From the IMG/VR virus record IMGVR_UViG_3300042402_007915, positions 83,226-147,225 of that record: a stretch of DNA of 64,000 nucleotides; one strand, given 5' to 3'. Under the pieces are notes generated by a model, which saw only the letters and a list, made by a program, of their open reading frames with translations, had not been told where the DNA came from and ran no database searches. The position numbers and the translations under genes were made by a program. This DNA is from a virus. Every line of letters starts with the position of its first letter. The stretch's first letter is position 1. This document shows, piece after piece, positions 12,780 through 63,133 of this stretch.

Positions 12780-12809
12780 AAAAGGGGAGGCACTAAGCCT
12801 CCCCCTTTT
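12780..12809. terminator. bidirectional terminator between convergent operons
   Basis: Near-perfect stem AAAAGGGGAGGC / GCCTCCCCCTTTT with loop ACTAA. The plus-strand arm is followed by TTTT. The minus-strand arm ends in TTTTATTTTCTC. It therefore has T-rich ends in both directions, as expected between the plus-strand structural operon and the minus-strand array. It overlaps the stop codon of the last array gene. Confidence 0.8.
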
Positions 12810-37009: not shown

Positions 37010-38296
37010 TTAAAATGCTTTCTTGGGTGGGTTTGAAGATCCAAGCGCGTATACGTTGGAGAAGTTGCGAAGAGTATTTCCCTGTGCGTCTTGCCATAGA
37101 ACAGCATAGCCATTCTGTGAACCGCCGCTATAGGAAAGATGAGGAGTATGTGCGTAATGCATAGGTCCAGCAAAGCAACCCTGCTCCATGATCAAGAGCC
37201 TGTCGTAAACGAACTTAGAAATCTTGTGGGTGTGTCCGATAACAACAGTATCAATTTCCTCTTCGGGATACCTTGAGCTAAAATAGTTGGCGGTCTTGTG
37301 TGCCAAGCTTGCAATGCCGCCCGAACCCCTGGTGTGAGGATGGGCAAAGATTGCTTTACCTACCTTACAGTACCAAGAATCTCGAAGGTCGAAATGCACG
37401 TTGTCGAAGTCATGCTTCTTAACAAGCTTCCCAGCAGCATTGATCTCTTCACCATTTGCAATACGCCCAAGAGCAGAAGGATTGAAATAGCTTACCGTAT
37501 TCTTGTTGATACCGTTCTCAGAGAGTACACGCGCAACGCGGCTTTCGTGATTACCCTCGGTAAGAATAACCTTCTCAAAGTTCTCGCTGCACCACTTCAC
37601 AAGAGCAAAAGCGCAACGGTATTCATCTACAATAGTAATCTCACGACTCTTCGAATAAGAAGAAGCAGAGTATCCCTCAAGGATATCTCCATTCAAGACG
37701 AGAACACTAGCGTCTGTATGGAGGGAAAGAGTCTCCTCAAGGAGATCTACCCTTGCAAACGGGAAGTGAATATCTGAAACGGAGACAATCTTGCGAACAG
37801 GTTCTCCTGTCTCATCCCCAATGGTTACCATTGGGTTGGGGTACTTGTTCTGAATGGTCTCGATCAGATCGAATGCGTTGGTTTCTGACAATGGCGACTC
37901 CTTCTTCGAAGGCTCAGTAGACGTAGCAACTACCGGGGTGGGAATAGGAGTCTTCTTCGTAGGAATGAAGACTCTGCTCGGGCCCTTAAACTGGGCAATG
38001 CGATTACCAGCCCTGTTAACGGGGAACGTATAGTTGGCAGTGTTTCGAATAGCCTCTACAAAGTAGGGGTCATTTCTATGACGGCTATACCAACGAGAGA
38101 TTGCCTTCTCAGAACGCTGGCTTCCAATAGCACGCAGAGCAGCTACGGCCTTGTCCATCGGCTGGTTTTCATCTCCAGTGCCAGCAAGACCAAAGCCATA
38201 CCAGCCCCTTTCCCAGACCTTATACTTCTCTGCGATGAGCATAACAGCAAAGGCCTCGTCATCTGACCAAGGATCGCCGAATTGATGTTTGTTCAT
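37010..38296 (-). CDS. calcineurin-like metallophosphoesterase
   Basis: 428 residues. Residues ~1-110 look like a helical, DNA-binding-type domain (SQRSEKAISRWYSRHRNDPY) followed by a Pro/Thr/Ser linker. The catalytic domain shows all metal motifs in order: SVSDIHFP, LNGDILEG, TEGNHESR, FAHPHTRG and IGHTH. Related enzymes are SbcD/Mre11-like nucleases or phage DNA phosphatases. The four-base overlap with dnaE-C suggests a DNA-repair or end-processing role. The substrate cannot be told from sequence. Confidence 0.75.
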   Translation of the reverse strand: MNKHQFGDPWSDDEAFAVMLIAEKYKVWERGWYGFGLAGTGDENQPMDKAVAALRAIGSQRSEKAISRWYSRHRNDPYFVEAIRNTANYTFPVNRAGNRIAQFKGPSRVFIPTKKTPIPTPVVATSTEPSKKESPLSETNAFDLIETIQNKYPNPMVTIGDETGEPVRKIVSVSDIHFPFARVDLLEETLSLHTDASVLVLNGDILEGYSASSYSKSREITIVDEYRCAFALVKWCSENFEKVILTEGNHESRVARVLSENGINKNTVSYFNPSALGRIANGEEINAAGKLVKKHDFDNVHFDLRDSWYCKVGKAIFAHPHTRGSGGIASLAHKTANYFSSRYPEEEIDTVVIGHTHKISKFVYDRLLIMEQGCFAGPMHYAHTPHLSYSGGSQNGYAVLWQDAQGNTLRNFSNVYALGSSNPPKKAF

Positions 38297-40749
38297 TGTT
38301 TACCTCCATAGATTGTTATTTCTCTAGCAAGGATTTCAGCAGTTTGGTTCTCTTCGTCTTCGTCAGAGTCTGACGACTTGATGAGGCCCGAGACCTTTAA
38401 GATCATCCCAGATTCTAGTTTTACGTTTGGGTACTTAGCTTCTAGCTTCTTTACGCCTTCTGCGAAAATCAGTACTGTGGCAAAAGACGTGCCGTCTTCG
38501 ATTTCAATAAGACCCATGCGACTACCCTTCTTTGTAGTCTTAATCTTTGCTGATACAATTGCGCCCGCAAAAATACCTCTATCGTCAGGTCTTGCATTGA
38601 TCAAGAATTCTGCTTCTGGGTAGATAGTGTGGGCCGGATGTTTGCCTAAGTAGCAGCCAATAGCTTGTCCCTGTTCAAGCTGTTCCTTGAGAGAAAGCTG
38701 AGCGTTATAAGGCCTAACTGGGAAGGTAATGAAATGCGGCATCTCTTTATGTTTAAGCTCTGGCTTGCGTCTGAGGTCCTTATGTTCTTCGAGGAAGGTT
38801 TCTTCTTCGAGAGTAAGAGGCGCGGCTTTCTTTAGCGACTTTTGATGCCGAAGCTTGTCGCGTCTTTCAATGAGTGGCAATACGATAGCCATCTCTTTGT
38901 CTCTCTCAAGGATCTCAGCTTCTCTTTCATGATAGGCAATCAGATCAGGCTTGTAAGCAAAGATCAGCTCCATCATCTCTAACAAGTGTTCTCTGTAATG
39001 ACCGAAGCAATCCATAGCCCCACTCTGTACAAGAGCAGTGAAAACCTTAGTGTTCATTTTAGTCTGGTTTGTTCTGTTCATGAAATCTTGAAGGTCTTCA
39101 AATGGCTTAGATCCTCGGATCTTTAAGATGTGGCTGACTGCAGAGCCGCCAACATTCTTGATTCCATTCAAACCAAACCTAATACATGTTGGATTGATAA
39201 TCTCAAAATGGTTTCCTGACTCGTTGATGTCTGGGCAAAGCACGTCAATATCAAACTGACGCGCTTCATCAATGTACTCCATCACTTTAACACGCCACAT
39301 CTTTGGCGACATCATTCTAGATCCAACAGACATCAGAGCACAGAAGTACTCAACGGTGTGGTTCGCCTTCAGGTAGGCACACACATAAGACAAGTACGAA
39401 TAGGCAACGGAATGGGAGGCATTGAACAAGTAGTCCGCACAACCAATGATAATGTCCCACAAACGGGAGACTTGCGCTTCAGAAAGGCCGTACTTCGCAC
39501 AACCAGCAAAGAACAGAGGCTGTAGCTTCTCTAGGTACTTCTTGTCCTTCTTACCTACAGCCCTTCTTGCAGTATCGGCGTCCTGGAGAGAAAGGCCTGC
39601 AACTTCAGTGAAGAGCTTAATGAGCTGCTCTTGGTAAACAAGAACGCGCCTAGTATTACTCCACATATCTGCGATAACCGCAGGAATTTCAGGATCGGAT
39701 TCTCTATTCAAGTAACGATCTAAGAAGCCTGCCGACATTGGACCTGGACGTACAAGCGCCGAAATGTCCGAAAGCTCAGCAACGCTTGTTGGTTTAGCTT
39801 TCATTACGGCATCTCCAATAAGAGATGAGGTCTCGAACTGAAAGACGCCGGTAAGCAGCCCACGAGCAAAGAGAGCGTAAGTCCTCTTGTCGTTGTCAGG
39901 GATGTTGTAGATGTCGATAGAGAGGCCCTTACGCTTTTGTATAAGTTCAACAGCTACCTGGAGTACGTCCAAGGTCTTAATGATCAAGAAGTCGTACTTG
40001 ATTAAACCAAGCGCCTCAACTTCCTTCATATCAAACTGGGTAACCCGAAGCTTATCTGCAGTCGTATAAGTCGGCGCCACTAAATGTACAGGGAAATCTG
40101 AAATGATCATACCAGCAGGATGAACACCATTATTCGAAATCATACCATCTAGGTTGTAAGTGAAATCGAACCACTCAGAATACTTGGCGTCTTCTAGTAA
40201 CTCAGGATGTGCAGGATATCCCTTCTCCGGGTTCCCCTTGACAACTTCCTTAAGGGTTGGCTCTTTACCAAACAAAGGGTCAGGAATCTTTGCAAGGATT
40301 TCATTTCGAACAGCAAGATGAGAGTCCTTGGCTTTGTCTCCAAGTTCTTTGTCTGGCATCCAGATAGAGAAATATCTTTGAGTTAAAGAGCGAGGCCCAA
40401 ACTTACCGTGAGTACCAATGTTGGCGACGTTATCGATGCCCCAAAGGTTGACAATGTGGTCAATGAGCTTTGTCCGACCACTCTCGGAAAAGTCCATATC
40501 GATGTCTGGAGCTGCTCCACCGATAGTGTCACTTCGTCCTTGCTGAAAATCAAAATCATCAGTTAGCCCCAAAGTAAATAAGAGTAAACTGTTGCGCTCG
40601 TTAACCTTAAAGAATAGACTCTTCTCTAAACAAAAGAGTAATCTCTCGACGTCTGCTTCTGTGGTAAATTCGAGTTCGTAATCTAGAAAGTCTTTATCCA
40701 CAAGAGCGACTCGTTCCTCTAGCAGCGAAGAACGTATCTTCTCTTTCAT
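38293..40749 (-). CDS. dnaE: DNA polymerase III alpha, C-terminal piece (split gene)
   Basis: 818 residues from ATG at 40749 with AAGGAGG six bases upstream; a longer frame into the methyltransferase region is rejected. Residues ~81-87 are PDIDMDF, the catalytic Asp pair of bacterial C-family polymerases. GLIKYDFL carries the third Asp. VRPGPMSAGFLDRYLNR, VLVYQEQL, GADTARRA-like and the NASHSVAY motif follow, then the HhH and an OB-fold near the end. The first 80 residues are not normal DnaE sequence. Palm, fingers and C-terminal domains are intact, so the enzyme can be whole only with the N-terminal piece at 44681-45940. Confidence 0.85.
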   Translation of the reverse strand: MKEKIRSSLLEERVALVDKDFLDYELEFTTEADVERLLFCLEKSLFFKVNERNSLLLFTLGLTDDFDFQQGRSDTIGGAAPDIDMDFSESGRTKLIDHIVNLWGIDNVANIGTHGKFGPRSLTQRYFSIWMPDKELGDKAKDSHLAVRNEILAKIPDPLFGKEPTLKEVVKGNPEKGYPAHPELLEDAKYSEWFDFTYNLDGMISNNGVHPAGMIISDFPVHLVAPTYTTADKLRVTQFDMKEVEALGLIKYDFLIIKTLDVLQVAVELIQKRKGLSIDIYNIPDNDKRTYALFARGLLTGVFQFETSSLIGDAVMKAKPTSVAELSDISALVRPGPMSAGFLDRYLNRESDPEIPAVIADMWSNTRRVLVYQEQLIKLFTEVAGLSLQDADTARRAVGKKDKKYLEKLQPLFFAGCAKYGLSEAQVSRLWDIIIGCADYLFNASHSVAYSYLSYVCAYLKANHTVEYFCALMSVGSRMMSPKMWRVKVMEYIDEARQFDIDVLCPDINESGNHFEIINPTCIRFGLNGIKNVGGSAVSHILKIRGSKPFEDLQDFMNRTNQTKMNTKVFTALVQSGAMDCFGHYREHLLEMMELIFAYKPDLIAYHEREAEILERDKEMAIVLPLIERRDKLRHQKSLKKAAPLTLEEETFLEEHKDLRRKPELKHKEMPHFITFPVRPYNAQLSLKEQLEQGQAIGCYLGKHPAHTIYPEAEFLINARPDDRGIFAGAIVSAKIKTTKKGSRMGLIEIEDGTSFATVLIFAEGVKKLEAKYPNVKLESGMILKVSGLIKSSDSDEDEENQTAEILAREITIYGGKQ
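40687..40716 (+). repeat. direct repeat, copy A (upstream of methyltransferase)
   Basis: 30-base element AAAGTCTTTATCCACAAGAG continuing with CGACTCGTTC, matching copy B at 42390-42419 in 26 of 30 positions. This copy lies inside the start of dnaE-C (antisense to residues E-R-V-A-L-V-D-K-D-F-L). Each copy precedes a plus-strand gene. A second short match, CCTTGGGGGAAAATG (40757-40771) versus CCTTGGGGGGAAAATG before 42439, extends the resemblance. It may be a duplicated junction or a shared promoter/operator. Confidence 0.6.
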
Positions 40750-40768
40750 GCAACCTCCTTGGGGGAAA

Positions 40769-42364
40769 ATGTCTGCCCATACCGAAATTTCATCTTCAGA
40801 GCTGCCAGTTTTGCCTGACGATGCTCGAGTCCTTCGCAAGCTGCGTCGTATTCAAGACGGTGGCGAGATTAGGTATGCAGATATTTTTGCTGGGTGTGGT
40901 GGTATTTCTCTTGGTTTCTTGACAGCTGGGTTCAAGCCGGTCGGATCTATTGAGTGTGACCCCTGGGCAGCCAAGTCACACGGAACAAACTTTGGACCCC
41001 ATTCTGCAGGGGCTGATCGTCCGGCACTTCATATCCCACGCGATGCTGTTACTGAAACCGCTGAAAGCTTTTTTGCTGACCTCGGGATTAGTGGCGAGAC
41101 AGAAGATCAAATAGATGTATTGGTTGGCGGCCCACCTTGCCAAGCATTCGCTCGTGTCGGCAGAGCCAAGCTTCGAGAGCAAGCTCGCCTTCGAGATGAA
41201 GTCACAGCGGACCAAGCCTTTCTTGTAGATGGACGTGTAAACCTTTGGGAGCGTTATGTTGCATTCATTAGGGCTACAAAGCCAGTAGCTCTTCTTATGG
41301 AAAATGTCCCAGATATCCTGAATCATGGTGGGGCTAATGTTGCAGAGCTTGTAGCCAAAAGCCTTGAGAAGGAAGGGTATGACGTTGTATACACTCTGCT
41401 AAACGCTGCTTGGTATGGCGTACCGCAGATAAGAGAACGGATGATACTTGTCGGCTTTCACAAGGCAACAGGTATCAGGCCTCGATTCCCAACACCTACG
41501 CACTACCTTGATTTGCCGTCTGGTTATGTCTCTCTAAGGAATACTGCACGCCGAGTAATCAAGAGCGAAGGCTCAGATTATCACCGCTGGGTAGATGGGC
41601 CTTCAAGCTTAGCAATGCCTGCAACTTCCGCTGCCGATGCTTTAGCTGACCTTCCGGTCTTCTGTGCGCAAGATCTTTTACACTCTGGCAAGTTGCGTCG
41701 TGGCCCTAAAGATTTATCCGAACAGATTGATTACACAACAAACGAACCAGCTACTTCCTACTCTAGGTTAATGAGGGAATGGTTCGGGTTTGCAACGAAA
41801 GCGGCGACTAGCCATGTCTTCCGCTACTTACCACGAGACTACAAAATCTTCGCTGAAATGAGAGCCGGGTGGGAGTACCCAGCGATTCATGCTCATGTAG
41901 AGCACAAAATTACAGAGTGGCTAGCTGAACGTAAACGCTGTGGTCTCTCTACCGACCTCTCAGATCCTGAAGTGAACAGCTTTGTTACGAGTTGGCGTCT
42001 ATCCTCTGATCCCCACAAGTTCCCAAACAAGTGGTGGAAGATGGAAGCCAACAAACCCGTACGAACTTTGATGGCTCACCTTGGGAAAGACTCCTACTCA
42101 CACATTCACTTTGACTCTGAGCAAGCTCGGACTATCACAGTCCGTGAGGCGGCTCGGCTTCAGTCTTTCCCTGATGGATTTGTATTTGAAGGCTCAATGA
42201 ATCCTGCGTTTAAGCAAATTGGTAACGCTGTGCCGCCGTTATTTGCTTACGCTATTGCACGAGCGATGCTAGAATGCTTAGCAGCCCCTACTGTTCCCGA
42301 CATGCGGGTTGAGTTGCTTGGGTTATCCGCTTCGCAGATTACGACAACTCGGGGAACTCCATGA
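40769..42364 (+). CDS. DNA C5-cytosine methyltransferase
   Basis: 531 residues from ATG at 40769 (MSAHTEI) with GGGGG four bases upstream; an ATG at 40748 lies on top of the dnaE-C start and is less likely. Motif I FAGCGGIS, motif IV GGPPCQAFARVGR with catalytic Cys, motif VI ENVPD, motif VIII QIRERM and motif X GNAVPPLFAYAI are all present, so it should be active. It transfers a methyl group to cytosine C5; the recognition site is unknown. It could protect phage DNA from host restriction. It is carried on the plus strand inside a minus-strand replication operon. Confidence 0.9.
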   Translation: MSAHTEISSSELPVLPDDARVLRKLRRIQDGGEIRYADIFAGCGGISLGFLTAGFKPVGSIECDPWAAKSHGTNFGPHSAGADRPALHIPRDAVTETAESFFADLGISGETEDQIDVLVGGPPCQAFARVGRAKLREQARLRDEVTADQAFLVDGRVNLWERYVAFIRATKPVALLMENVPDILNHGGANVAELVAKSLEKEGYDVVYTLLNAAWYGVPQIRERMILVGFHKATGIRPRFPTPTHYLDLPSGYVSLRNTARRVIKSEGSDYHRWVDGPSSLAMPATSAADALADLPVFCAQDLLHSGKLRRGPKDLSEQIDYTTNEPATSYSRLMREWFGFATKAATSHVFRYLPRDYKIFAEMRAGWEYPAIHAHVEHKITEWLAERKRCGLSTDLSDPEVNSFVTSWRLSSDPHKFPNKWWKMEANKPVRTLMAHLGKDSYSHIHFDSEQARTITVREAARLQSFPDGFVFEGSMNPAFKQIGNAVPPLFAYAIARAMLECLAAPTVPDMRVELLGLSASQITTTRGTP

Positions 42365-49756: not shown

Positions 49757-49789
49757 AGAATAGGAGGAGGCAAAGCCTCCTCCTATTCT
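49757..49789 (-). terminator. terminator after the SpoVG-like gene
   Basis: Perfect 15-base stem AGAATAGGAGGAGGC / GCCTCCTCCTATTCT with an AAA loop. On the minus strand it is followed by TTTCTTTTCGG, so it is an intrinsic terminator for transcription arriving from 50237. The next gene downstream, at 49738, would need its own promoter or read-through. Confidence 0.8.
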
Positions 49790-51136: not shown

Positions 51137-51423
51137 TACAATTTCTCCTTATCTTTAACTAACCATTCTAATGTATTTAAGCCTTGGTAGATCATAGCAG
51201 TGGCGAGAGTCTCGCCGTTTTTATTTCTTTCTTTCAGGTAAACCTCAAAGACTTCTTGGAGAGTGGTGATCTCCTCTCCATTAGAGCGAAATGTTTCTGT
51301 ATGCTCTAAACCAGATCTTATCAAAACATTGGAAATAATAGCAAGCTGTTCCGTGAGGGGAGAGCTTGCTATTATCCGTAATACGGCTTTAACCAGTAAT
51401 TCTTGTCTTTCTGTAGTAGTCAT
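51136..51423 (-). CDS. helical hypothetical protein, 95 aa
   Basis: All-helical, acidic (VKAVLRIIASSPLTEQLAII; LQEVFEVYLKERNKNGETLA). Starts inside the end of phoH (35-base overlap). No motif recognised. Confidence 0.45.
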   Translation of the reverse strand: MTTTERQELLVKAVLRIIASSPLTEQLAIISNVLIRSGLEHTETFRSNGEEITTLQEVFEVYLKERNKNGETLATAMIYQGLNTLEWLVKDKEKL

Positions 51424-52273
51424 TCATATCCGATGCAAGAGTACAAATAGCTGAACGGTACTGAGTCTTTAGCTGACTCAACGAAGAAAGAGGACTAAGC
51501 ATAAACGGCTCACTCTTAAGTAGAACCGACATGCCAGCAGGATCGTCCTTAGTAAACGTAACGTCAGCCTGAGTTGGATCTCCCAATAGAATCAGCTTGC
51601 TGTTTTGTCCGACACGAGAGATCAACGTATTAAGCTGATGCCAACTCATGTTCTGAAACTCATCAACAATGATTACAGAGTTATCGTACGTGTTGCCTCT
51701 CATGAGCTCAACAGGTACGAACTTCAATGCCTCTCTATTCTTCCCTGCAGCCAAATATGAAGTAGCTCTGGAGCCAAGGATTTTCCTGACAATGATCTCG
51801 AACGATTCGAGATAAGGTGCGTACTTCTCGTTGATGTCTCCAGGTACAGGACCGAAAGCCTTACCACTACCTACCATGACTGCTGGCTTTGAAAGAATAA
51901 TCTGAGTGTCCTTAAGGGTCTGCTGTGCATGCAAAGCATAAGCCATAGCAAGAAGAGTCTTGCCAGTACCTGCTGGACCAATACAAACATTCAAAGGAAT
52001 AGTGGGGTTAGTTAGGGCATCACAAAAAGCGCCTTGGTTGAGACCCTTGGGAGCGATGTCCCCAACCTTAGTAGAGTTTTGCCGTAACAAGAAGCGCCCG
52101 TCGCCAGCATGACGAACCAAAGCGGTTCTCTTGTTATCGGTATAAGACCTAAGGTTCATGTAAGAATTAACTGGCAATGATGTAGGCAGGTCCAAATGAA
52201 CTGCACCTTGAGCAAAGGCTGCATCAATCGCCTCTCCATCAACGCCAATTTCTTCAACTAAATAAGACTCCAT
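51389..52273 (-). CDS. phoH: PhoH-like ATPase
   Basis: 294 residues. Walker A NVCIGPAGTGKTLLAMAY (about 94-111) and Walker B with NSVIIVDEFQNM (about 190), then LILLGDPTQAD, all hallmarks of PhoH family RNA helicase-like ATPases common in large phages. AGGAGG seven bases upstream supports the ATG at 52273. The N-terminal ~80 residues carry a short non-ATPase domain. Its exact role in phages is unsettled; phosphate or RNA metabolism has been suggested. Confidence 0.85.
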   Translation of the reverse strand: MESYLVEEIGVDGEAIDAAFAQGAVHLDLPTSLPVNSYMNLRSYTDNKRTALVRHAGDGRFLLRQNSTKVGDIAPKGLNQGAFCDALTNPTIPLNVCIGPAGTGKTLLAMAYALHAQQTLKDTQIILSKPAVMVGSGKAFGPVPGDINEKYAPYLESFEIIVRKILGSRATSYLAAGKNREALKFVPVELMRGNTYDNSVIIVDEFQNMSWHQLNTLISRVGQNSKLILLGDPTQADVTFTKDDPAGMSVLLKSEPFMLSPLSSLSQLKTQYRSAICTLASDMNDYYRKTRITG

Positions 52274-52304: not shown

Positions 52305-52331
52305 AAGGCCCCCTTACAAGAAGGGAGCCTT
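52305..52331 (-). terminator. hairpin ending the ubiquitin-like cassette
   Basis: Inverted repeat AAGGCCCCCTT / AAGGGAGCCTT (one mismatch) with loop ACAAG, between the stop of the Ubl gene and phoH. On the minus strand it is followed by ATATTTCG, only moderately T-rich, so termination may be partial and phoH may still be read through. Confidence 0.5.
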
Positions 52332-52336
52332 GAGTA

Positions 52337-52630
52337 CTAGCAGGTGCCTACAAGGGCAGCGTGCGTGATAAATGGAACAAGAGAGAAAGCTCCCTTGACG
52401 GACTTGTTGACACCAATCTCCGACCAAGCGCGGAGGGTAGTGCCAGCAAAACTGGCCTCGGGGATGGGAGTCCCGTCGACGTCGACGTCGTACTTCTGGC
52501 CGCCGGGGTTCCAGTCGGCCAGGGCCTTGGCGATCGTGGGATCGCTGAAGACCTGGCGAAGAGTGCCGTTCTCGGGGAGTTCAACGGGAAGCTTGCGACC
52601 ACCAGGGGTCAGGGTGACGATTACTCGCAT
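52337..52630 (-). CDS. ubiquitin-like beta-grasp protein
   Basis: 97 residues; start ATG overlaps the E1-like stop. The order strand (RVIVTLTPGGRKLPVELPE), helix (SDPTIAKALADW), strand (KYDVDVDGTPI) and loop/strand is that of a beta-grasp ubiquitin fold, and Q-x-Y-x-V-D-G-x-P-I resembles the mid-part of PRTRC/ThiS-like proteins. The C-terminus extends to AALVGTC and lacks the usual Gly-Gly. Gene order next to an E1-like and a JAB-type gene supports a protein modifier. Conjugation is inferred; the terminal residue needed is not obvious. Confidence 0.65.
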   Translation of the reverse strand: MRVIVTLTPGGRKLPVELPENGTLRQVFSDPTIAKALADWNPGGQKYDVDVDGTPIPEASFAGTTLRAWSEIGVNKSVKGAFSLVPFITHAALVGTC

Positions 52631-53388
52631 GTTTGATCCTTACGATGACGTGTAGTAACGGAGATTCCGTTTGTACAGTCAATAATGATCTGTAGCGGGA
52701 ACTTGAAATCGGTAGACTCAGAAGCTTCCCACTCTCGAACGCACTCGACGAAGAGATGGGTAGCAGAACCGACTAGGAGAGAGACCGGCGCCGGACAAAT
52801 CTTCATCGTACAAGGGAGCTCAGTAACCTCGTTATCATCCTTCAAGGTATGATACCACGCCTCGTTAGTCTCAAGACTCTCGAGGGGGTACAAGAAGAAG
52901 GAGCGGCCAAAATCGAAACCCAAGCGGAAGTCGATAATGACCGGAACGATTGCGCCGGACTCTCGTACGAGCTTCCTAATCTGATCAACGATTGAACGCC
53001 GAGCAGAGAAGGAGTCAACACCCAAGAAGACGAAGCCGCCACGACCAGTCTTGTGAGCCATATCGGTAGTCTCGGTGAACTTACCGTGAAGGTGACAGAC
53101 GATGTCGGACCGGAAATCAGTAAGAACAAACTCAAGCGCTTCGGTCTTAAGCATACCAATCTGGTAGCGACCAAAGGCCTGATTGGCACAGTTGTAGTCT
53201 TCGACTACATCTCCGTCGTAAAGATGAAACTCGGTAAACCCGAGTCGAGCAAGCAACATAGCTGCATTGCTTCCAACAGCTCCACACCCTACGATGTGGA
53301 TAGGAGGCCGATCCTTCTTCTCCCCGAACCAAGCTGAATGCCTGGTGAAGGAAGGTTCAGGTGTAACCCTATCGTCTTGTCTTTTCAT
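52621..53388 (-). CDS. ThiF/E1-like ubiquitin-activating enzyme
   Basis: 255 residues. Nucleotide-binding GCGAVGSNAAMLLARLG (about 34-50), the acidic DGDVVEDYNCANQAFGRYQ (about 58-76) with the typical Lys (IGMLKTEAL), and VFLGVDSFSARRSIVD (second Asp) define the adenylation fold. A Cys pair in LPCTMKICPAP (about 191-201) could include the thioester Cys. It would adenylate the C-terminus of the beta-grasp protein encoded next door. No zinc C-x2-C pairs are seen. ATGA overlap with the JAB gene and ten-base overlap with the Ubl gene. Confidence 0.8.
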   Translation of the reverse strand: MKRQDDRVTPEPSFTRHSAWFGEKKDRPPIHIVGCGAVGSNAAMLLARLGFTEFHLYDGDVVEDYNCANQAFGRYQIGMLKTEALEFVLTDFRSDIVCHLHGKFTETTDMAHKTGRGGFVFLGVDSFSARRSIVDQIRKLVRESGAIVPVIIDFRLGFDFGRSFFLYPLESLETNEAWYHTLKDDNEVTELPCTMKICPAPVSLLVGSATHLFVECVREWEASESTDFKFPLQIIIDCTNGISVTTRHRKDQTCE

Positions 53389-55157
53389 GCCAACCCCGCA
53401 GCAAACTCTTCCCAGCCCGCAAAAGGATTCTGATCGTCCTTTTCAGCGGTATCGGGAACTGGAACGAGTGACGTCGTCAAAGCCTTTTGAACTGACCCGC
53501 CCGAAGGGACAGAATCAGAACCAGACTCAAAGATATAGGTAAGGCGGAAGACATCGTTCTTGAACGAGTCGATAAGGATATCTACAGTATCCGTCAGCAT
53601 CCTTTGCGAGAGGGCATCCGGAGAAACCATAAAGGTGGCAAGCTGGAAGGCGTAGAAATAAACCATGAACGAATGAGTAGTGATGTTCTGATCGTTCAAG
53701 TGAGCAGCAAATTTAGCTCGGTTAGGATGAGTAGTAACAGAGTTCTGCTTAATGGTTTCACAAATGCTAGTGATATACTCAATGCTTAGAACCTGAGTAA
53801 GAACGGCTTTCAGGCTGTTAACAACGACAGTAGCTTCAGTGGCGGTCGTGGTAGCGTCTTTGCGGAAGAGGAAAGTACCGAGTAGATGCGAGAAATTAAG
53901 GAAGTGCAAGAAGACTTCGTCCTTATGCAAATCGTTTACGGTCGCATTGCTGAACGTGTACGAATATTCCTGGTTAACAAAGTAGGAATAGACCTGCTTC
54001 TCTGTCTCAAGTTTCCGTACGTTCTGGGTGTCATAGAAACACTCAAAGAAGCAAAGAAAGACTCGGTAGAGAGAATCTGTGCGATGCTTATAGGCTTGCG
54101 CCTCAAGCATCTTGCCGTAAAGGCCAAGCATTGGGGTTCGCCATTCGCAAACCGAGAGAAGATCGAAGGGCGTGTAAGTAGTGGAAGCATGGCCAAAGGA
54201 CTTCATCCCCTGGCTCTTTTGAAAGTCTTCAATAAGTTCGCAAGCATCATCAACGGCTTCAATGCAAGTGGCTGCTCCAGCAAGCTCTTCTTGCACATTG
54301 ACAGTAGGCCTAAAGGTACTATAGGTACCAAAGGTGTCAAAGAGCTTCCGGTAAGCATCGAATAGAGGCGGAGAAGACAAGGAGATCGGAGTCTTCGTGC
54401 TATCGCTTTTGGAAGAACTCGAGCTCTTGCTCGTCCCGTATCCCTGCCACTGCTGAGAAGAATAAGTGGTGGCCTTAGGCCTGACGCGACTCTTGCAAAC
54501 TTCGGTCAGGCCTTGGGAAAAACCCGGATCAAGCAACTGAACCGGAATAGCCTCGAGTTCGCGACCGATCTCTGCATCCCGAATGCGAACGAATAGCTGT
54601 CCGTCAAGGTTGAAAATAAGCATCGCACAAACGGGAGAGTCGGTGAAAGCAGACTTCCACTCCTCCCACTGAGTGTTATCCGTGCCCGAAGGGGTTGCGG
54701 TCATCTTTACGTGGGAATGACACCACGTATTGTAAGACCGGAAGTACTCATTGGCACGCTCCATGCGCGTGCCGTATTCTTCGAAGCTGATAACTTCTAC
54801 GGTGTTCGGCTCACTGCCGGCAACAGTAACCGTAGTATCGTCACGCTCAAGGCGAAGACAACCAAAGCGGCGCTCAATATCCTTGCCAAGCTTGGGAGCA
54901 TCCACAGCGTTGGACTCAACGTAGGTGCCCTGAACTTCTTGCCAAGGAACCTCGGGGACACCCTTGAATCGGTAAATCACTTCTTCAGCATTGCGTCGAG
55001 CAACCTCGAGCTGAAGATAGAACTGAATCTCAGAGGGAGGGGTCAACCCTCCGGCGTAGCCGCAAACCGCAAGCGCGTCGATCCACGTCTGTGTATCCAT
55101 AAACGCCCTGGGGGTCGGCTTGACAAGAAAAGTCCCTTGCATCTTAGGACTAAGCAT
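53385..55157 (-). CDS. large JAB/JAMM-domain protein
   Basis: 590 residues from ATG at 55157, which lies on the previous stop and has GGAGGAG eight bases upstream. Residues 147-160, HSHVKMTATPSGTD, give an exact JAMM metal motif H-x-H-x7-S-x2-D, with Glu residues at about 126-134 upstream as the catalytic acid. A Ser/Lys linker and a long helical C-terminal part follow with no recognised domain. JAMM proteins cleave isopeptide or precursor peptide bonds on ubiquitin-like proteins. In this operon it should process or remove the beta-grasp modifier. Much larger than usual JAB proteins. Confidence 0.7.
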   Translation of the reverse strand: MLSPKMQGTFLVKPTPRAFMDTQTWIDALAVCGYAGGLTPPSEIQFYLQLEVARRNAEEVIYRFKGVPEVPWQEVQGTYVESNAVDAPKLGKDIERRFGCLRLERDDTTVTVAGSEPNTVEVISFEEYGTRMERANEYFRSYNTWCHSHVKMTATPSGTDNTQWEEWKSAFTDSPVCAMLIFNLDGQLFVRIRDAEIGRELEAIPVQLLDPGFSQGLTEVCKSRVRPKATTYSSQQWQGYGTSKSSSSSKSDSTKTPISLSSPPLFDAYRKLFDTFGTYSTFRPTVNVQEELAGAATCIEAVDDACELIEDFQKSQGMKSFGHASTTYTPFDLLSVCEWRTPMLGLYGKMLEAQAYKHRTDSLYRVFLCFFECFYDTQNVRKLETEKQVYSYFVNQEYSYTFSNATVNDLHKDEVFLHFLNFSHLLGTFLFRKDATTTATEATVVVNSLKAVLTQVLSIEYITSICETIKQNSVTTHPNRAKFAAHLNDQNITTHSFMVYFYAFQLATFMVSPDALSQRMLTDTVDILIDSFKNDVFRLTYIFESGSDSVPSGGSVQKALTTSLVPVPDTAEKDDQNPFAGWEEFAAGLA

Positions 55158-57645
55158 TGAGCAGCTCCTCCTTTGCCTCGACCTTGGTGGTCTCGGTCTT
55201 CTTTTCGATACAAATCGGCAGCACAAAGCTATTGAAATCAACCCTGTTTTCTGACGTGATCTTGTAATCGAAACGGAACCGAGTAGTTTTCAGGACCTTG
55301 ATTCCAATATTAGTTTTGTCAACCGTATCCAACCTAAAGAGGTTGTCTACGCAGTCCCAAACCACAGATCTCTTCAGCTCAGCAAAAATCTGTGGGAAGT
55401 TAATCTGAACTTGGGTGTCTGTTTGAACAATACCCTTAGAATCAGCAGGTACCGTGAGAAGAGCATATGGAGTGATTTGAGCCGGATCATAATGTCCTAG
55501 CGCAGTAGAAGACTTGGCTAGCGATGCATAAACGTTTTCGACAAGAACAGAAACGGTTCCATCTTTCGGGTTGTAGTAACCGCGCAGAGGAGCCAACACC
55601 TTCTCAGCGACAAGGACTTTTTCCTGAGGCTGACCCACAAGGCCACGAAGAGTTGTGTGTAGCGGAGACTGTGACAAGTACGCGCGAATAAATTCATTAG
55701 ACCAAGCATCATCTGGGCCTGTGTTGTTCTTAATCCAACTAAGAGCAGCCTTGAGAGTAGAGAGGAGATCGCCACTCTCCATAAAGGGAGACACAAAACC
55801 TCCAAAGGTTCCTGTGCAAGGTCTGCTCCAGCCTTGGATTTCGACTGCAGAGCCGATATGGGGATGGAGTTTATAGTTCGAAACCTTATACATGACTGTG
55901 TCTTCGAGGCCACGAATCATGAGACTCGAATCTTCGACGATGACCTCGAACGGACCCACAAGCGCAATGTGGTCTTTGGGTTTCGAATCGAGGACGTTCA
56001 CGATAGGAGTCGATAGAGTGAAATGCACCTTGTGCAAACACTTTACCTGGAAGGGATTGAAATCGGCAGGAATGTTTGGCACGAGTTTACCATTTTCCTG
56101 CGTGAAGGTAATGTAAACCCGATTACCGTTTTGCATACCATAATGCACTTCATGGATAGTAATCGAATTCAGTTTACAGAAGTTAATGAAAGAAGTGGTG
56201 ACATGCTGCGCCGTACGGTCTACAGGAAGAACGGAAGCAAACAGCGTAGCAATCTCTGTCGGAGGAAGAATCTTGGCTTTGTAACTGGCAATGTTCCCGT
56301 TTAACGCAGTGATAGCAGTTTCATGCTCGGTAATGCTTCTTTGTAGGGCTTGGATATCTCTTCTGCAGCGTTCGATAGAGGCTCGACGAACGTCAAGGCT
56401 GTCCTCGCAAGACTTAATTTGCTTCTCTAGGTTGCTTTGGTTTAGCAGAGTATCTGCTACCGCCTGAATCTCAGAAGGGTAGTTGGTATACACCCCTCGT
56501 GCGACTCTGGAGACCATTGCAACCTTAGGAAGGAAATCTTGTGGCATGCTAGGCTCTACAAACTTCGAAGCCAGAGACAGCTCGCCAGGACGCTTAGCCA
56601 AGTCTCCGAGCTTAGGAACGTGAATCTTACGCTGAAGATAAGTCCTTACGCCCCTCAGCTGAGTGAGAACGGTCTGCGCAAAGATAGTCGGGTCTACCTC
56701 AAAGTCTTTTGTAAGAATGAGAAGCTGGCCTGCATAGACCTGAGTGTAGTAGACCCTGCCGTCTTCTTCGAAGCCTCTGAACGGGACTGGCTTATCTTCA
56801 CACCAGTAGACCTCTCCGGCCGAAGTGCAAACAAACCTTCTAAAGACATGAGTAAATTGATACTGTTTCATAATGGCTTCACTACAACGCAGAACAACTA
56901 CATCTTGCCTTCGGGCGGGATTGCCCTTGTGCTCAAGAGAATAGAAGGTCTGTACGTCGTCGGGATAAAACATCTTGAATCTGTGTGAAAGCAGCGCCCA
57001 ACCAGGCTCGCTTACTTCTTCACGGTCCATCCCAAAATGGAAATTGCGAACAGTGTGAAGGCAGAACGTATCGTATGGACTGTATTTCCTATCGGCATTA
57101 TAAAGGGCCTTTGTCTTAGGCTCTTCCAAAAATGCCGCTAGGATGCTCGCCCAAACAGTAGCTTCAAAGTATTTCAGATCCTGGAAGAACGCTTCCGGGG
57201 CTTTATAAACGTACGGGAAAGCAGTCTTGTTACCGCCGTTGTAATTTACATTTCTGGGACGATAGCGCTCCCCAGTAGCAGCAAACTGAAGAACAGAATA
57301 AGACTGACTGGTAGAGTTAGACCGATAAAGAGAAGTCCAATCACCAAGACTGTGCTTACGACCTCTTGGCAGACGACCAAAGTTGTAACTATTTGGGAAT
57401 GTCGTCTTGAGGGTATCAAAAGCATCAAGGATAACATCGGCAACAGCCTGAACCGATTCGGCAGTGTCATCATCATTCCAAGAGAAGGGAATGTTAGTGT
57501 AGGTCCGCGAATCGTGATCAAACAACATGAGAACGATACCATGTCTATAGTAAGTAAGGTTTGTTTGCAAAAGTGACGAAATGGCAGAGAGTCCTGCACT
57601 AGGACACTCCGCCACATCGATATGGACAGCGCCGACTACCGCCAT
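55150..57645 (-). CDS. very large E2-like (UBC-fold) protein
   Basis: 831 residues from ATG at 57645 with GGAGAAACCGC upstream. Residues ~584-650 carry an E2-like pattern: a beta meander, then YKLHPHIGS (HPH at 594-596), a Cys in PCTGTFGG (Cys610) about 14 residues later, and a helix GDLLSTLKAALSWIKNN. This matches the H-P-x...C layout of bacterial E2 families. A coiled coil (about 403-450) links it to a ~390-residue unrecognised N-terminal part. Predicted to accept the activated modifier from the E1-like enzyme and pass it to a target; the target is unknown. Confidence 0.6.
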   Translation of the reverse strand: MAVVGAVHIDVAECPSAGLSAISSLLQTNLTYYRHGIVLMLFDHDSRTYTNIPFSWNDDDTAESVQAVADVILDAFDTLKTTFPNSYNFGRLPRGRKHSLGDWTSLYRSNSTSQSYSVLQFAATGERYRPRNVNYNGGNKTAFPYVYKAPEAFFQDLKYFEATVWASILAAFLEEPKTKALYNADRKYSPYDTFCLHTVRNFHFGMDREEVSEPGWALLSHRFKMFYPDDVQTFYSLEHKGNPARRQDVVVLRCSEAIMKQYQFTHVFRRFVCTSAGEVYWCEDKPVPFRGFEEDGRVYYTQVYAGQLLILTKDFEVDPTIFAQTVLTQLRGVRTYLQRKIHVPKLGDLAKRPGELSLASKFVEPSMPQDFLPKVAMVSRVARGVYTNYPSEIQAVADTLLNQSNLEKQIKSCEDSLDVRRASIERCRRDIQALQRSITEHETAITALNGNIASYKAKILPPTEIATLFASVLPVDRTAQHVTTSFINFCKLNSITIHEVHYGMQNGNRVYITFTQENGKLVPNIPADFNPFQVKCLHKVHFTLSTPIVNVLDSKPKDHIALVGPFEVIVEDSSLMIRGLEDTVMYKVSNYKLHPHIGSAVEIQGWSRPCTGTFGGFVSPFMESGDLLSTLKAALSWIKNNTGPDDAWSNEFIRAYLSQSPLHTTLRGLVGQPQEKVLVAEKVLAPLRGYYNPKDGTVSVLVENVYASLAKSSTALGHYDPAQITPYALLTVPADSKGIVQTDTQVQINFPQIFAELKRSVVWDCVDNLFRLDTVDKTNIGIKVLKTTRFRFDYKITSENRVDFNSFVLPICIEKKTETTKVEAKEELLNA

Positions 57646-58094
57646 GCGGTTTCTCCTCTGTGATACAGCTCTCTTGTGTAATAAAAGAAAAGAAAACGGG
57701 TCTCTTGCCTTATTGTTAGATGCGAGTAGTAGTGATCCCAAAGGGGTTTGAAATAGAGGAAAGTTTCTTCAGCTAAAGCCTTCCTCTTGTTCTCTAGGTC
57801 TCCCAAAGAAAGCTCTGCTTCTAATGGAAAGGATAGATTAGTGAAGTCTTCAGGCCTACGGTAGAAGCACTCGATAAGCGATTCTTCAAATATGTCGGGA
57901 GGCAAAGAAAACCCCCTCGAAGTCGTATGAGAGATTAAGCCAAAATCTCTGAAAAACTTCGAGGGGGTCAGCTGTGTTTCCTCGACCTCAAGGAATTCCA
58001 AGTACATCTTGAGTGTACTTTCTTCTACTACTGAAGGAGTAGGAACAAAGAGTCCTAAATAGAACCGTTCCCTTGCCTTTTCCGAATTGGTCAA
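57636..58094 (-). CDS. hypothetical protein in the ubiquitin-like cassette
   Basis: 152 residues. Start is TTG at 58094 with AAGGAG five bases upstream, overlapping the previous stop (TTGA). Helical with several aromatic clusters (ALAEETFLYFKPLWDHYYSH; TRFLFFYYTRELYHRG). No domain recognised. Its four-base and ten-base overlaps with both cassette neighbours imply that it is translated with them, perhaps as an adaptor. Confidence 0.5.
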   Translation of the reverse strand: MTNSEKARERFYLGLFVPTPSVVEESTLKMYLEFLEVEETQLTPSKFFRDFGLISHTTSRGFSLPPDIFEESLIECFYRRPEDFTNLSFPLEAELSLGDLENKRKALAEETFLYFKPLWDHYYSHLTIRQETRFLFFYYTRELYHRGETAWR

Positions 58095-58327
58095 TAAGCT
58101 CCTTCAGGGACCTCAAGGAGGGGACCGTAGCACACTGGACAGGTGGCTGCAATTTCTTCAGCCTCCACAGCGTCGGCAACAGTCTCCCAAGCACACCTTG
58201 TGTCAAGGCAGGCTAGAAGGTACCTTTCCGAACCGAAGGCCTGAAAGGACAGACCACCAGAATCAGAAACCAATTCTGGCTGTTGTACGGATTGGTCTAG
58301 CGGTTTGTTCTTTGAGGTAAGCGGCAT
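58091..58327 (-). CDS. small zinc-knuckle protein in the ubiquitin-like cassette
   Basis: 78 residues (ATG at 58327; a TTG at 58273 would give a 60-residue form). C-x4-C (CLDTRC) and C-x2-C (CPVC) 17 residues apart form a probable zinc site. Zinc-binding small proteins act as E3 adaptors or substrate receptors in other modifier systems, but nothing here proves that; a structural zinc ribbon is equally possible. It overlaps the Lon-like gene by about 65 bases. Confidence 0.5.
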   Translation of the reverse strand: MPLTSKNKPLDQSVQQPELVSDSGGLSFQAFGSERYLLACLDTRCAWETVADAVEAEEIAATCPVCYGPLLEVPEGAY

Positions 58328-60143
58328 CAATTAAAACCTTTGAGGTACCGTGAAGGTAAATAGAAGTAACTGCCTTCTTCAGAATACGGCGCACCCTCAG
58401 CTCAATCTGTCGTAACTGAACCTCTTCGATAAGAGTTTCAATTGCTTCGTCTGCAAACTTGATGTCGTAATCATAAGGGCTTGTTAGCAGATTATACTCT
58501 GCGTAGATATTGGGAATCATATACTTTGTTAGGATAATCCGGCGCTCATCTTTTGTGTACTCACGAAACCGAATGATCTCCATACGGTCCTTCAAGGCTG
58601 GGGGGATATCCTCTTCTTCATTCGCGGTACAAATGAACAACACCTTAGACAGATCAATCGGCAGCTCAAGGTATCTATCAGAGAAACTTGTGTTCTGCTG
58701 AGGGTCTAAGATCTCAAGAAAAGCTGCTGTTACTGGACTATATGACCCGCGCATAGGTGTCTTGTCAATCTCGTCAAGAATGATAAGTGGATCCATACAC
58801 TTGGCCTGCTGGAGAATAGAAACAATCCTACCTGCCTTGGAGGAAACATAAGTCCGCCTATGACCGCGGACTTCTGCCTCATCGGTAAGACCACCCAGCG
58901 GTAACGAAAAGCAAAGGCGATTACTAGCCGTAGCAATACTCTTGGCGATAGAGGTCTTGCCAGTGCCAGCAGGACCAGTGAAACAAAGGACACCACCAGT
59001 TTGTCGGCCAGTAATCTTTTCAATAACAAGATGCTCTGTTAGCACATCCTTAACCTCACCAAGTCCGTAATGAGTAGAATCCATTAACGACCTAAGATTT
59101 GGAAAGTCAATCTCTTTGGCTCGAGTGACTCCCCAGGGAAAAGACAGTATCTGATCGGTCCAGTCCAAGAGGTTATTCGCCTCTTGTCCAGTAGCTCGAG
59201 ATAGCTTCTTCAACTCGTAGAGCAGCTTCTCCTTATGAGTCGCAGGAATAGCATTGAGCCGAGCCTTATTCTCGGTTGAGATATCAAAATCATAAACAGG
59301 CTCTGAATCTTCCTTCTTCTTTTTGGGGGTAGAAGTCTTCTTTGGAGCCTTATCTTCGGGCTTAACCTTGAGAGGAGCGCCTGTAAAAGAGGAAATGACA
59401 TCTCGTCGTGAATTGAATAGATCGGAAAGGGCCGCAGAAAGGATGGTCCACTGGTCGTGTAGACTTCTCGTCTGCCCTTCTCCGTCAAAGAACAAATTGA
59501 GCCAAGAGTCAACATTGTTCTTGTATAGGAAATAGGCCGTTACATAAGCAAAGGAAACATACTTGTTTTGGTAGCTTTCGTACTCTGGTGGATGGCCTGC
59601 TAGTGGCTGCAAAGCAAAGATTGTTTGCTCCTTGCCAAAAGAGTCAGAGTAACAGTGGCCAAAATAGTTCTGGCTCTCCACCGCAATATAGGTGTTGTAA
59701 ATATCAATCAGCTCATAGCTTGGAGGGTTCTCTTCTTTGAACTGTACCTGAGCAAAATTCAACTCTATGTTTTGGTTTTCAGAGGCCGGAGAGTTGCTTA
59801 GGACGATGTTCTCGGGAGGACAGAACGCAATGATATTGCCTGAAATAAGCAAATCTTTGTTCTCGATGGCCTGCTCAATATTGTCAGAAAAATATTCAAT
59901 AGTGACTCCGGCAAAAGCGTAAAGCACTCTTGTGATCTCTGTCTCACTAGGAAACCTAAAACACAAGAGAACAAAGGTGTGCTGCCCGAAAGCAGTATTC
60001 GCAGACAAATAGTCTGTGAACTGATCAGCCGGAGCAAAGGCTAACGACCAGTTGTCTGGACCGTAATTGAAGTATCTCCCTGGGTAGGGGAATTGGATAT
60101 CGGCTCCGTCAATGTAGAAGAACGGAACACCAACGGACTTCAT
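58263..60143 (-). CDS. Lon-type AAA+ ATPase lacking a protease domain
   Basis: 626 residues. Residues 1-~260 are an unrecognised domain, then a charged linker (KKTSTPKKKKEDSE), then a Lon AAA+ core: Walker A GPAGTGKTS (390-398), the Lon-typical GGLTDEAEVRGHRRTYV, and Walker B LIILDEIDK (453-461). Lon-specific sensor and arginine blocks (ALKDRMEIIRF) follow, up to the helical lid. The protein ends about 40 residues after the lid, so the S16 Ser-Lys protease domain is absent. A substrate-remodelling motor working with the ubiquitin-like cassette is a reasonable inference. Confidence 0.8.
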   Translation of the reverse strand: MKSVGVPFFYIDGADIQFPYPGRYFNYGPDNWSLAFAPADQFTDYLSANTAFGQHTFVLLCFRFPSETEITRVLYAFAGVTIEYFSDNIEQAIENKDLLISGNIIAFCPPENIVLSNSPASENQNIELNFAQVQFKEENPPSYELIDIYNTYIAVESQNYFGHCYSDSFGKEQTIFALQPLAGHPPEYESYQNKYVSFAYVTAYFLYKNNVDSWLNLFFDGEGQTRSLHDQWTILSAALSDLFNSRRDVISSFTGAPLKVKPEDKAPKKTSTPKKKKEDSEPVYDFDISTENKARLNAIPATHKEKLLYELKKLSRATGQEANNLLDWTDQILSFPWGVTRAKEIDFPNLRSLMDSTHYGLGEVKDVLTEHLVIEKITGRQTGGVLCFTGPAGTGKTSIAKSIATASNRLCFSLPLGGLTDEAEVRGHRRTYVSSKAGRIVSILQQAKCMDPLIILDEIDKTPMRGSYSPVTAAFLEILDPQQNTSFSDRYLELPIDLSKVLFICTANEEEDIPPALKDRMEIIRFREYTKDERRIILTKYMIPNIYAEYNLLTSPYDYDIKFADEAIETLIEEVQLRQIELRVRRILKKAVTSIYLHGTSKVLIDAAYLKEQTARPIRTTARIGF

Positions 60144-60693: not shown

Positions 60694-60987
60694 TTAGTTT
60701 GGTGTAAAAGTTACCAGAGTATTTTCTGGTACAAAGTAATAGCTGTTCTTTCCTGGAGTTTCTCCAGTGGCAGCCCAAATCAAAACATAACCATCCTTGG
60801 GAAAGGCTGGCTTACGATAAGTATGACCGATAATAGTGTTAGAAGTTAATACTCGAGTCTCTTCTGTTGAATGCAAGATAGAACGAGTAGTGCCAGTTGA
60901 TTCGGCAGCTCTAAAAGCAACAGTATTTTGCTCAAGGTAATAGATGTGTCCTTCATTGGGAAGGTTCTTTACGAAAGTCTTGAACAT
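60694..60987 (-). CDS. hypothetical protein, 97 aa
   Basis: Small beta-rich protein (HIYYLEQNTVAFRAAESTGT; VLIWAATGETPGKNSYYFVP). No catalytic motif or family recognised. Abuts the uracil-DNA glycosylase gene with a one-base overlap. Confidence 0.45.
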   Translation of the reverse strand: MFKTFVKNLPNEGHIYYLEQNTVAFRAAESTGTTRSILHSTEETRVLTSNTIIGHTYRKPAFPKDGYVLIWAATGETPGKNSYYFVPENTLVTFTPN

Positions 60988-61637
60988 CAGATGCTCCCGA
61001 AGACCTGTTCAAGGTCTTCTCTCAGTTCGGCGGCGGCAGTCTTTTTGTATCCAAATGCGTAGGCCGGATGCCATGTACAAAGCACAGGCACAGTTAACTC
61101 ATCTACTTGCAAATCAAAAGTCTTTCCTCTCAAGGATCCCGAAGGCAATACTGTACCAGCTAGATAAGCTAACGCTCTTGAAGGGACCGCCCCTAAAGCA
61201 ATAATTCTTTTGGGTTGGAAGACTCGAATTTCCTCGAGAAGAAAAGGAGAGCACGCTTGGTACTCTTCTCTTGTGGGTGTACGATTGTTGGGGGGCCTAT
61301 GCTTAACAGCATTAGACACAGAGATATCCGGCATGTCGAAACCAACCTCAGCAAGTAAGGCACGAAGCTTCTTGCCGGAGAACCCAACGAAGGGCCGCCC
61401 AGTCTCATAGAAAGCCGCCCCGGCAGGAATGCCAAAACCCGAAGGCTCTGCCTCGGTAGCACCCGGAGCCTCGCCCACAAGCAAAACCTTGGGATTGGGA
61501 GACCCAGAAATGGCAGGGACCGGACACCCAGGAGTTTGAGATAGAGAGCAGTTAGCGCATCTAACTAACTGTAGGTTGCTCTTCAGCAACGCTGGGAGAT
61601 GAAGTGGATCTTGGTCCGCCAAGAGTCCTCCAGTCAA
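60987..61637 (-). CDS. family-4 uracil-DNA glycosylase
   Basis: 216 residues at maximum. Motif order fits family-4/5 UDG: LLVGEAPGATEAE, PFVGFSGKKLRALL, NAVKHRPPNNRTPT, PKRIIALG and CTWHPAYAF, with Cys clusters C-x2-C (CANC) and two later Cys for a 4Fe-4S cluster. It removes uracil from DNA during replication or repair. The ATG at 61637 overlaps the previous gene by 77 bases; a downstream TTG near 61589 may be the true start. Confidence 0.8.
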   Translation of the reverse strand: MTGGLLADQDPLHLPALLKSNLQLVRCANCSLSQTPGCPVPAISGSPNPKVLLVGEAPGATEAEPSGFGIPAGAAFYETGRPFVGFSGKKLRALLAEVGFDMPDISVSNAVKHRPPNNRTPTREEYQACSPFLLEEIRVFQPKRIIALGAVPSRALAYLAGTVLPSGSLRGKTFDLQVDELTVPVLCTWHPAYAFGYKKTAAAELREDLEQVFGSI

Positions 61638-62335: not shown

Positions 62336-63133
62336 ATGGGAATCTTTCGTAGAGGAGATAAGTCTCCTGAAATCGCAACCATCAAGCAAGCCTTCAACGC
62401 AATCGGTTTCAGCATGGTGGTGGATAATGAATTTGATTTGATTTTAGATGCAGCCACACGCACCCTACAAAGGGTTTCCAAGATCACTGTTGATGGAGTG
62501 ATCGGACCCAATACAATGAAGGCACTCAAGAGTACTCTTTCTCTCGAGGCTGGGCTGCTAAAGAACAACGGAATTAAAGTCTTACATAGGGTTGGGTACC
62601 AAACACAAAGGGATAACAAGTACAACCCTGGAGGGACTTGCGGACCAACCTCTATGTCAATGGCAATGAGCTTTTACGGAGCAAAAGCCGCTACGGGCAA
62701 GCAGCTTGAAGATGAAATCTTTGAACACTTGCAAGCTGCAGATGCGCAAGCTATCTTCAAGAAAGACTTTCCTTGGGCAGTAGGAAAATATAACCCACAT
62801 AACATCCATGGGATGCTGCAGTGGGTTTGTAACAACAAGTACGCTCCTGTGAAGGATACGTTTATCTCCCACGATACATGGGAGGGGCTGAAGCTTGCTC
62901 TCCAGCGTGGCCCGATTGTAGTCAGCGGACACTTTACCGGGAATGGACATGTGGTGTGTCTCGTAGGAGAAACGACAAGCGGCGACATTATCGTTCACGA
63001 TCCCTACGGGAATTGGGGGCATGGATACCAAAGACGCCTTCCTGGCGAATACGTGGTCTACAATCAGGAAGACCTAAAAAGGTTGCTGAAGCCAGGCGGA
63101 GCTAGGTATCAGTACCACAAGTTCAGTAAGTAA
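62336..63133 (+). CDS. endolysin: peptidoglycan-binding plus C39-like peptidase
   Basis: 265 residues; GGAGGG upstream. Residues ~1-65 match a PG_binding_1 domain (SPEIATIKQAFNAIGF; ITVDGVIGPNTMKALK). Residues ~88-265 fit a C39/papain-like fold with catalytic Cys102 (GGTCGPTSMSMA), His205 (GHVVCLVG) and Asp222 (VHDPYGN). Such proteins bind and cleave peptidoglycan cross-bridges to release progeny. It stands alone on the plus strand, followed by a terminator. No holin or signal peptide is encoded in the same unit. Confidence 0.7.
   Translation: MGIFRRGDKSPEIATIKQAFNAIGFSMVVDNEFDLILDAATRTLQRVSKITVDGVIGPNTMKALKSTLSLEAGLLKNNGIKVLHRVGYQTQRDNKYNPGGTCGPTSMSMAMSFYGAKAATGKQLEDEIFEHLQAADAQAIFKKDFPWAVGKYNPHNIHGMLQWVCNNKYAPVKDTFISHDTWEGLKLALQRGPIVVSGHFTGNGHVVCLVGETTSGDIIVHDPYGNWGHGYQRRLPGEYVVYNQEDLKRLLKPGGARYQYHKFSK

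Follow-up and report, generated by a model that had tools for sequence, protein, structure and literature searches.

An operon in a 64,000-nucleotide stretch of viral DNA (positions 83226-147225 of IMG/VR record IMGVR_UViG_3300042402_007915, hereafter the window) most probably encodes a ubiquitin-like conjugation system of a phage, and related sets were found in about a hundred other fragments of phage genomes; ubiquitin-style modification of proteins is thus probably used by phages and not by their hosts alone. The cassette, a single run of overlapping minus-strand genes (52337-60143), is real and conserved, and it holds the parts of a conjugation pathway: a ubiquitin-like protein (Ubl), an E1-like activating enzyme, an E2-like protein and a JAB metalloprotease. 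These four core parts carry conserved active-site residues, which supports reading the cassette as a conjugation system. The chemistry is known; the family and the kind of owner are new. Each open reading frame (ORF) of the overlapping run described in a first-pass annotation of this DNA lies where it was placed. Its claim that E1, E2, Ubl and JAB sit together in a phage replication region was borne out as well: the window encodes a primase-helicase, a DNA polymerase, a methyltransferase and a tail fibre; the other part of the 147,225-base (~147 kb) record, of which the window is the terminal part, encodes terminase, portal, a head maturation protease and a tail sheath; and the joint set recurs across many viral contigs with its active-site residues conserved. 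Judged by gene content, the source virus is a contractile-tailed phage.

Pfam named ThiF and AAA alone among the cassette proteins, with JAB below the cut-off (0.009) and E2 and Ubl blank, and relatives were therefore needed to recover JAB, E2 and Ubl. Pfam and PHROGs searches likewise left the E2, the Ubl and two small proteins (P0005, P0006) without a name. Single-protein searches returned no match in viral contigs for the E1 (P0002) and the Lon-like protein (P0007), and none in named phages for the JAB (P0003) and the E2 (P0004). By tblastn, P0002 retrieved 37 phage records, for the most part from Flavobacterium psychrophilum phages and a human-gut phage; in their neighbourhoods a JAB with the JAMM signature adjoins the E1. 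Scanning 2.9 million viral contigs with an E1 pattern drawn from a three-sequence E1 alignment confirmed 122 viral loci, 80 of which were kept; profiles built from these yielded JAB, E2-like and Ubl/S1 families, most commonly in the order S1-Ubl-E2-JAB-E1. A separate scan for the JAB signature gave 41 confirmed loci, each with an E1 near the JAB, so that two independent scans, seeded by E1 and by JAB, converge on the same neighbourhood. Among 109 distinct E1 loci, which are viral with few exceptions and of which several incomplete ones are on short contigs, a JAB lies nearby in 107 and an E2, by profile or motif, in 79; a Ubl-type match was found in at most 92, an upper figure, as the permissive Ubl profile also caught S1a domains.

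The window's own layout, Lon-E2-JAB-E1-Ubl, is repeated in four contigs (L091, L098, L132 and L133) with Ubls of 71-73 residues. Their E1s and the L096 E1 form one clade with P0002 (support 100/98), the closest being 36% identical, and the arrangement has therefore been kept over a long divergence. Two further observations concern individual relatives: L127 (14220-18839) carries a second, diverged E2-like/JAB/E1 set beside the first on one contig, and in the gut-phage cassette (L003, MT835544) a reverse-transcriptase-like ORF (6954-8291) with the motif YTRYADDMMFSCY directly follows the E1 gene.

The E1 (52621-53388) is a single ThiF module of 255 residues that matches Pfam ThiF at 1.5e-16, as expected from the ThiF/E1-like enzyme first proposed. 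Across 19 phage E1s, G34 and G36 of the glycine loop, S40, D58, D60, N66, K81, D125, R130, R155 and C193 are invariant; the adenylation residues, including D58, R130, K81 and D125, are thus accompanied by a candidate catalytic cysteine, Cys193, which lies in the context LPCTMK and which we infer to form the E1 thioester. Searched against the PDB, the phage E1 profile matched UBA5 best (3e-20), with other E1s, ThiF and MoeB ranking next.

The JAB (53385-55157), a protein of 590 residues with a long C-terminal extension, carries HSHVKMTATPSGTD, that is H147-x-H149-x7-S157-x2-D160, the exact motif that had been read from the sequence. Glu69 upstream, which the first-pass annotation had not listed, completes the JAMM site, and all five residues (E69, H147, H149, S157, D160) are invariant in 17 aligned homologues. 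While the Pfam match of P0003 is weak, a profile of 80 phage JABs recovers it at 1.9e-17 with hmmsearch and 2.1e-11 with hhalign.

The Ubl precursor (P0001, 97 residues, 52337-52630) consists of a beta-grasp core (~1-78), Lys79-Gly80 and a disordered 17-residue tail, AFSLVPFITHAALVGTC. An hhalign comparison with the phage Ubl profile (9.4e-6) aligns the KG columns, so that K79-G80 corresponds to the terminal KG of its relatives. AlphaFold, run with 25 phage relatives, predicts a beta-grasp fold up to residue 79, with a predicted local distance difference test (pLDDT) score of 80 overall, ~90 over most of residues 1-79 and low only for 80-97; the top Foldseek matches in the PDB are ubiquitin, SUMO2, SAMP1, MoaD and ThiS, all with probability 1.00, and M. 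tuberculosis CysO (3dwg) is also matched. Two outcomes that the first-pass annotation had named as fatal to its proposal, a 97-residue protein without a beta-grasp fold and a 590-residue protein without a JAB domain, were looked for, and neither was found. Ubls of KG-type relatives mostly end in KG followed by one or two residues, many of them in Lys-Gly-Asn plus 0-2 residues. Other precursors contain tandem Ubls, with three KG copies at 69-residue spacing in L072 and two in L110 and L037, and the L096 Ubl has a single KG with 28 residues beyond it. With extra residues or tandem copies around the KG, a free glycine therefore seems to need cutting; the pattern seems to be one of processed precursors, for which JAB is the obvious candidate protease. 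The cassette thus holds a modifier of predicted beta-grasp fold with a conserved KG, whose glycine would become usable upon processing.

The E2-like protein (P0004, 831 residues, 55150-57645) comprises an N-terminal region, a coiled coil (~400-457) and a UBC-like domain (~480-690) with the motif H594-P-H596 ... C610-x-G. The HPH and Cys610 noted initially are both present: neither H nor C varies across 41-42 aligned domains, and PH and C-x-G are invariant among relatives. P0004 aligns with the E2s of the syntenic L091, L096 and L098, and hhalign connects it to the phage E2 family at 2.2e-4 over residues 590-659 only, the segment with HPH and Cys610. We also compared profiles with a UBC reference of four hand-entered eukaryotic E2 sequences. 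A narrower selection of 23 phage E2 domains, P0004 not included (profile A12), matched it at E 8e-8 over 116 columns, aligning HPN, the cysteine and the NPDDP loop, and scored 49.4 against 18.9 for the best of 200 column-shuffled versions. An alignment headed by P0004 (A10) reached 1.2e-6 against eukaryotic UBC, and a bigger profile of S1-type E2s alone matched UBC poorly (0.0099). In an hmmsearch of the PDB, the E2 profile listed UBE2W and UBE2D2 at E ~1, at the HPH/Cys motif; its best-scoring matches, LRRC16A and DARPins, were dismissed as artefacts of coiled coils or repeats. At loci without a profile-detected E2, a twelve-protein and a nine-protein cluster matched the E2 profile at 3.5e-5 and 1.5e-10, respectively. 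UBC fold, HPx and cysteine are thus found together at family level only, through the invariant motif and the profile match, and we take the phage family to be E2 by profile; P0004 counts as a divergent member on the strength of its motif, its synteny and the A10 comparison. In Flavobacterium phage FpV4, a candidate at the E2 position (P0013, L002 5584-6846) has an invariant HSHL and FC-x-G, but compares at 0.72 with UBC, no demonstrable relation, and weakly (0.0077) with the phage E2s; it may be an E2 that has diverged further, or another kind of protein.

An E1, a JAB and a beta-grasp protein could also make up a sulfur-carrier pathway, in which the Ubl would be a ThiS/MoaD/CysO-like carrier that is activated by ThiF, trimmed by JAMM (compare CysO/Mec+ and QbsE/QbsD) and supplies sulfur for a metabolite, tRNA or cofactor. 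The top NCBIfam scores of P0002 are indeed to ThiF-type models, ThiS, MoaD and CysO are among the structural matches of the Ubl, and JAMM trimming of a C-terminal tail occurs in such pathways. Yet in most loci a UBC-like protein with invariant PH and cysteine stands beside the E1, and we know of no sulfur pathway that has one. Moreover, the window's cassette showed no recognisable rhodanese, pyridoxal phosphate (PLP) enzyme or thiazole enzyme, the Ubl terminus is KG rather than GG, and it is UBA5 that the phage E1 profile matches best. Together, these observations render sulfur transfer decidedly improbable.

For a conjugation system, the conserved residues suggest the following order of events. 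The JAB would trim the Ubl precursor after Lys79-Gly80; P0002 would adenylate the new C-terminal glycine and load it onto Cys193; and P0004 would receive the Ubl on Cys610, beside HPH, and pass it to amino groups of targets, probably selected by its N-terminal region and coiled coil. The JAB may also remove the tag. As the cassette sits among replication genes, use in early-to-mid infection, on host or replication proteins, is suggested.

Several points weigh against this reading. Its support comes from sequences and models, and no E3 candidate was identified. As for the UBC fold that the first-pass annotation had made a test of the 831-residue protein, the family profile matches UBC, if against a reference of hand-entered sequences, whereas the AlphaFold model of P0004 465-700 is poor (pLDDT 61) and found no significant Foldseek match in the PDB. 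In a second large phage subgroup the Ubls end in KADNA or similar, not KG, and their C-terminal chemistry may differ; in 12 cases the Ubl is fused to S1a, and its C-terminus would not be free unless cut. Finally, the Lon-like gene is confined to a small subset of cassettes.

Phage-borne conjugation parts might instead act as decoys that jam bacterial Bil, Bub or CBASS Cap2/Cap3 systems, for instance with the JAB stripping host Ubl or the phage Ubl saturating host E1 and E2. Bacterial defences run the same chemistry (PMC10097602, PMC11354881), and P0002 matches PADLOC E1-E2 models at 2.2e-11. A decoy, however, has no need of a full set with active-site residues conserved over very divergent phages, and the core members co-occur; an active system might be put to such use, but jamming does not replace it, and as an explanation of the cassette we hold jamming unlikely. 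Very improbable, in turn, is an acquired bacterial anti-phage operon carried to exclude competitor phages. Phages do carry defence genes, but the cassette lies within a phage replication block with syntenic phage neighbours, and the 122 confirmed relatives in viral contigs contrast with 7 loci in 84,980 cellular genomes, a rough contrast because the two scan patterns differed slightly. Of these seven, L087-L090 branch outside the phage clade, and the other three are contigs of metagenome-assembled genomes with phage-type cassettes.

The proposed conjugation pathway may extend to the gene that opens the cassette in reading order (Lon-like, zinc-ribbon, P0005, E2, JAB, E1, Ubl, hairpin). P0007 (626 residues, 58263-60143) was confirmed as the Lon-type AAA+ motor it had been called, matching TIGR00763 at 6.9e-90 over Lon positions 259-570 of 795; the match ends there, and the S16 protease half is absent. 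Its relatives adjoining E2-JAB-E1-Ubl in L091, L098 and L132 also stop after the AAA+ region, with a conserved GF. Two further hits of the Lon query (L134, L135) were rejected, looking by eye like full-length Lon proteases and lying outside cassettes. Our proposal is that P0007 unfolds tagged proteins: speculatively, the protease-less ring probably unfolds or pulls them apart, like Cdc48 or the AAA+/Rpn11 pair of the proteasome. A broader picture, to which we give somewhat less than even chances, is that tailed phages commonly tag proteins with their own Ubl during infection, as a viral branch of its own whose E2s have coiled coils and whose modifiers are processed by the JAB and in some cases resemble polyubiquitin, and that in this lineage the tag feeds the protease-less Lon-type unfoldase, a viral segregase that dismantles host or replication complexes.

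Two small ORFs separate the Lon-like and E2 genes, one of which had been credited with a zinc site. This holds for the zinc-ribbon-like P0006 (79 residues, 58091-58330), whose cysteine pairs (C-x5-C ... C-x2-C) are kept as C-x5/6-C and C-x2-C upstream of the E2 gene in L098, L132, L133 and L096. For P0005 (152 residues, 57636-58094) no homologue was found, even at the equivalent position in two syntenic cassettes, and it is at most a tentative member of the cassette. Directly before the zinc-ribbon gene, on the opposite strand, L132 9205-9879 and L133 7834-8493 (minus strand) hold a trypsin-like serine protease ORF (GFSGGG).

Directly 3' of the Ubl stop codon lies a minus-strand hairpin with an 11-bp stem (52305-52331; -17.5 kcal/mol, z -3.07 versus shuffles), likely an intrinsic terminator. 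The cassette is flanked by phoH on one side and a uracil-DNA-glycosylase-like gene on the other. The PhoH-like ATPase (P0008, minus strand, 51389-52273; Pfam PhoH 4.8e-42) is shared context outside the tag pathway, and phoH-like ORFs were likewise recognised, by eye from sequence, on the downstream side of the Ubl in L091, L132 and L133. Both the uracil-DNA-glycosylase-like protein (60987-61637) and a middle segment of the DNA polymerase (38293-40839) are matched by PHROG family 4335, a hint that some phages have a fused or inserted glycosylase domain. Elsewhere in the window, about a dozen minus-strand ORFs of near-equal size (~120-150 residues; 12808-19500) are possibly paralogues; a perfectly paired 15-bp hairpin (49757-49789), flanked on either side by T-rich sequence, is possibly a bidirectional terminator; and an ORF (62336-63133) that starts like a peptidoglycan-binding protein and contains a C39-peptidase-like GGTCGPTS motif is possibly a lysis enzyme.

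Prokaryotic Ubl conjugation has so far been known as host biology, chiefly anti-phage defence. If phages do have a complete and widespread set, the attackers would use the same chemistry as host defence, and the set would offer a workable model for studying how E2 enzymes and polyubiquitin-like precursors arose. Protein tagging during infection would become testable, for example in cultured Flavobacterium phages with a related E1-JAB set (L002).

We found no report of a phage E1-E2-Ubl-JAB cassette in the open literature, which is weak evidence as few subscription papers and no preprints were covered. A term search of a 2006 survey of prokaryotic ubiquitin systems (PMC1779556) brought up operon types of bacteria and the Ubl/JAB of the lambda tail, with no such cassette, and a term search of a 2021 jumbo-phage survey found no mention of an E1-like protein, ThiF or JAB. 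The lambda tail proteins TAPI/TAPK share phage Ubl and JAB domains with the cassette but lack E1 and E2, have the JAB fused to NlpC/P60 and belong to tail assembly genes (PMC1779556), whereas the cassette lies among replication genes. ThiS/MoaD sulfur carriers end in GG and have no E2, unlike the KG-bearing Ubl with an E2 family beside its E1. Lon protease shares its AAA+ module with P0007, but the S16 protease domain is missing there and in the aligned cassette-linked relatives. The UFM1 E1, UBA5, is compact like the phage E1 whose profile it matches best; it is eukaryotic and UFM1-specific, and the match is limited to the adenylation region.

None of the named conjugation systems tested (CBASS, Bil, PRTRC) matched the cassette, so that the likeness to Bil and PRTRC claimed at the outset holds by mechanism, not by the family features tested. 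CBASS type II Cap2/Cap3 has E1, E2 and JAB chemistry in common with the cassette. In CBASS, however, E1 and E2 are fused in Cap2, which acts on the C-terminus of the CD-NTase; the cassette genes, in contrast, are separate, include their own Ubl and are accompanied by no CD-NTase among the cassette proteins. PRTRC cassettes are carried on plasmids. They and operon type 6d resemble the cassette in their separate Ubl, JAB, E1 and E2 genes and their small Ubl with a C-terminal glycine, but the type 6d E2s lack the classical histidine before the cysteine that the phage E2s have (Iyer et al. 2006, PMC1779556). P0002 scores 18.3 bits with the PRTRC ThiF model TIGR03736, against a cut-off of 144.75, and library searches of the cassette proteins listed no match to other PRTRC parts. 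BilABCD, finally, has the same four parts, Ubl, E2, JAB and E1, and its JAB trims the Ubl to expose a glycine (PMC11354881). Its BilD E1, however, combines an inactive and an active adenylation domain with a Cys domain, where P0002 is a single 255-residue module; BilA has two Ubl domains; and BilB has CEHH, whereas P0004 reads C610-TGTFGGFVSPFMES, with no E/H at the CEHH spacing, and the phage E2s have HPH before the cysteine and a coiled coil. BilABCD is an ISG15-like host defence operon of bacteria, whereas the window's cassette is borne by a phage.

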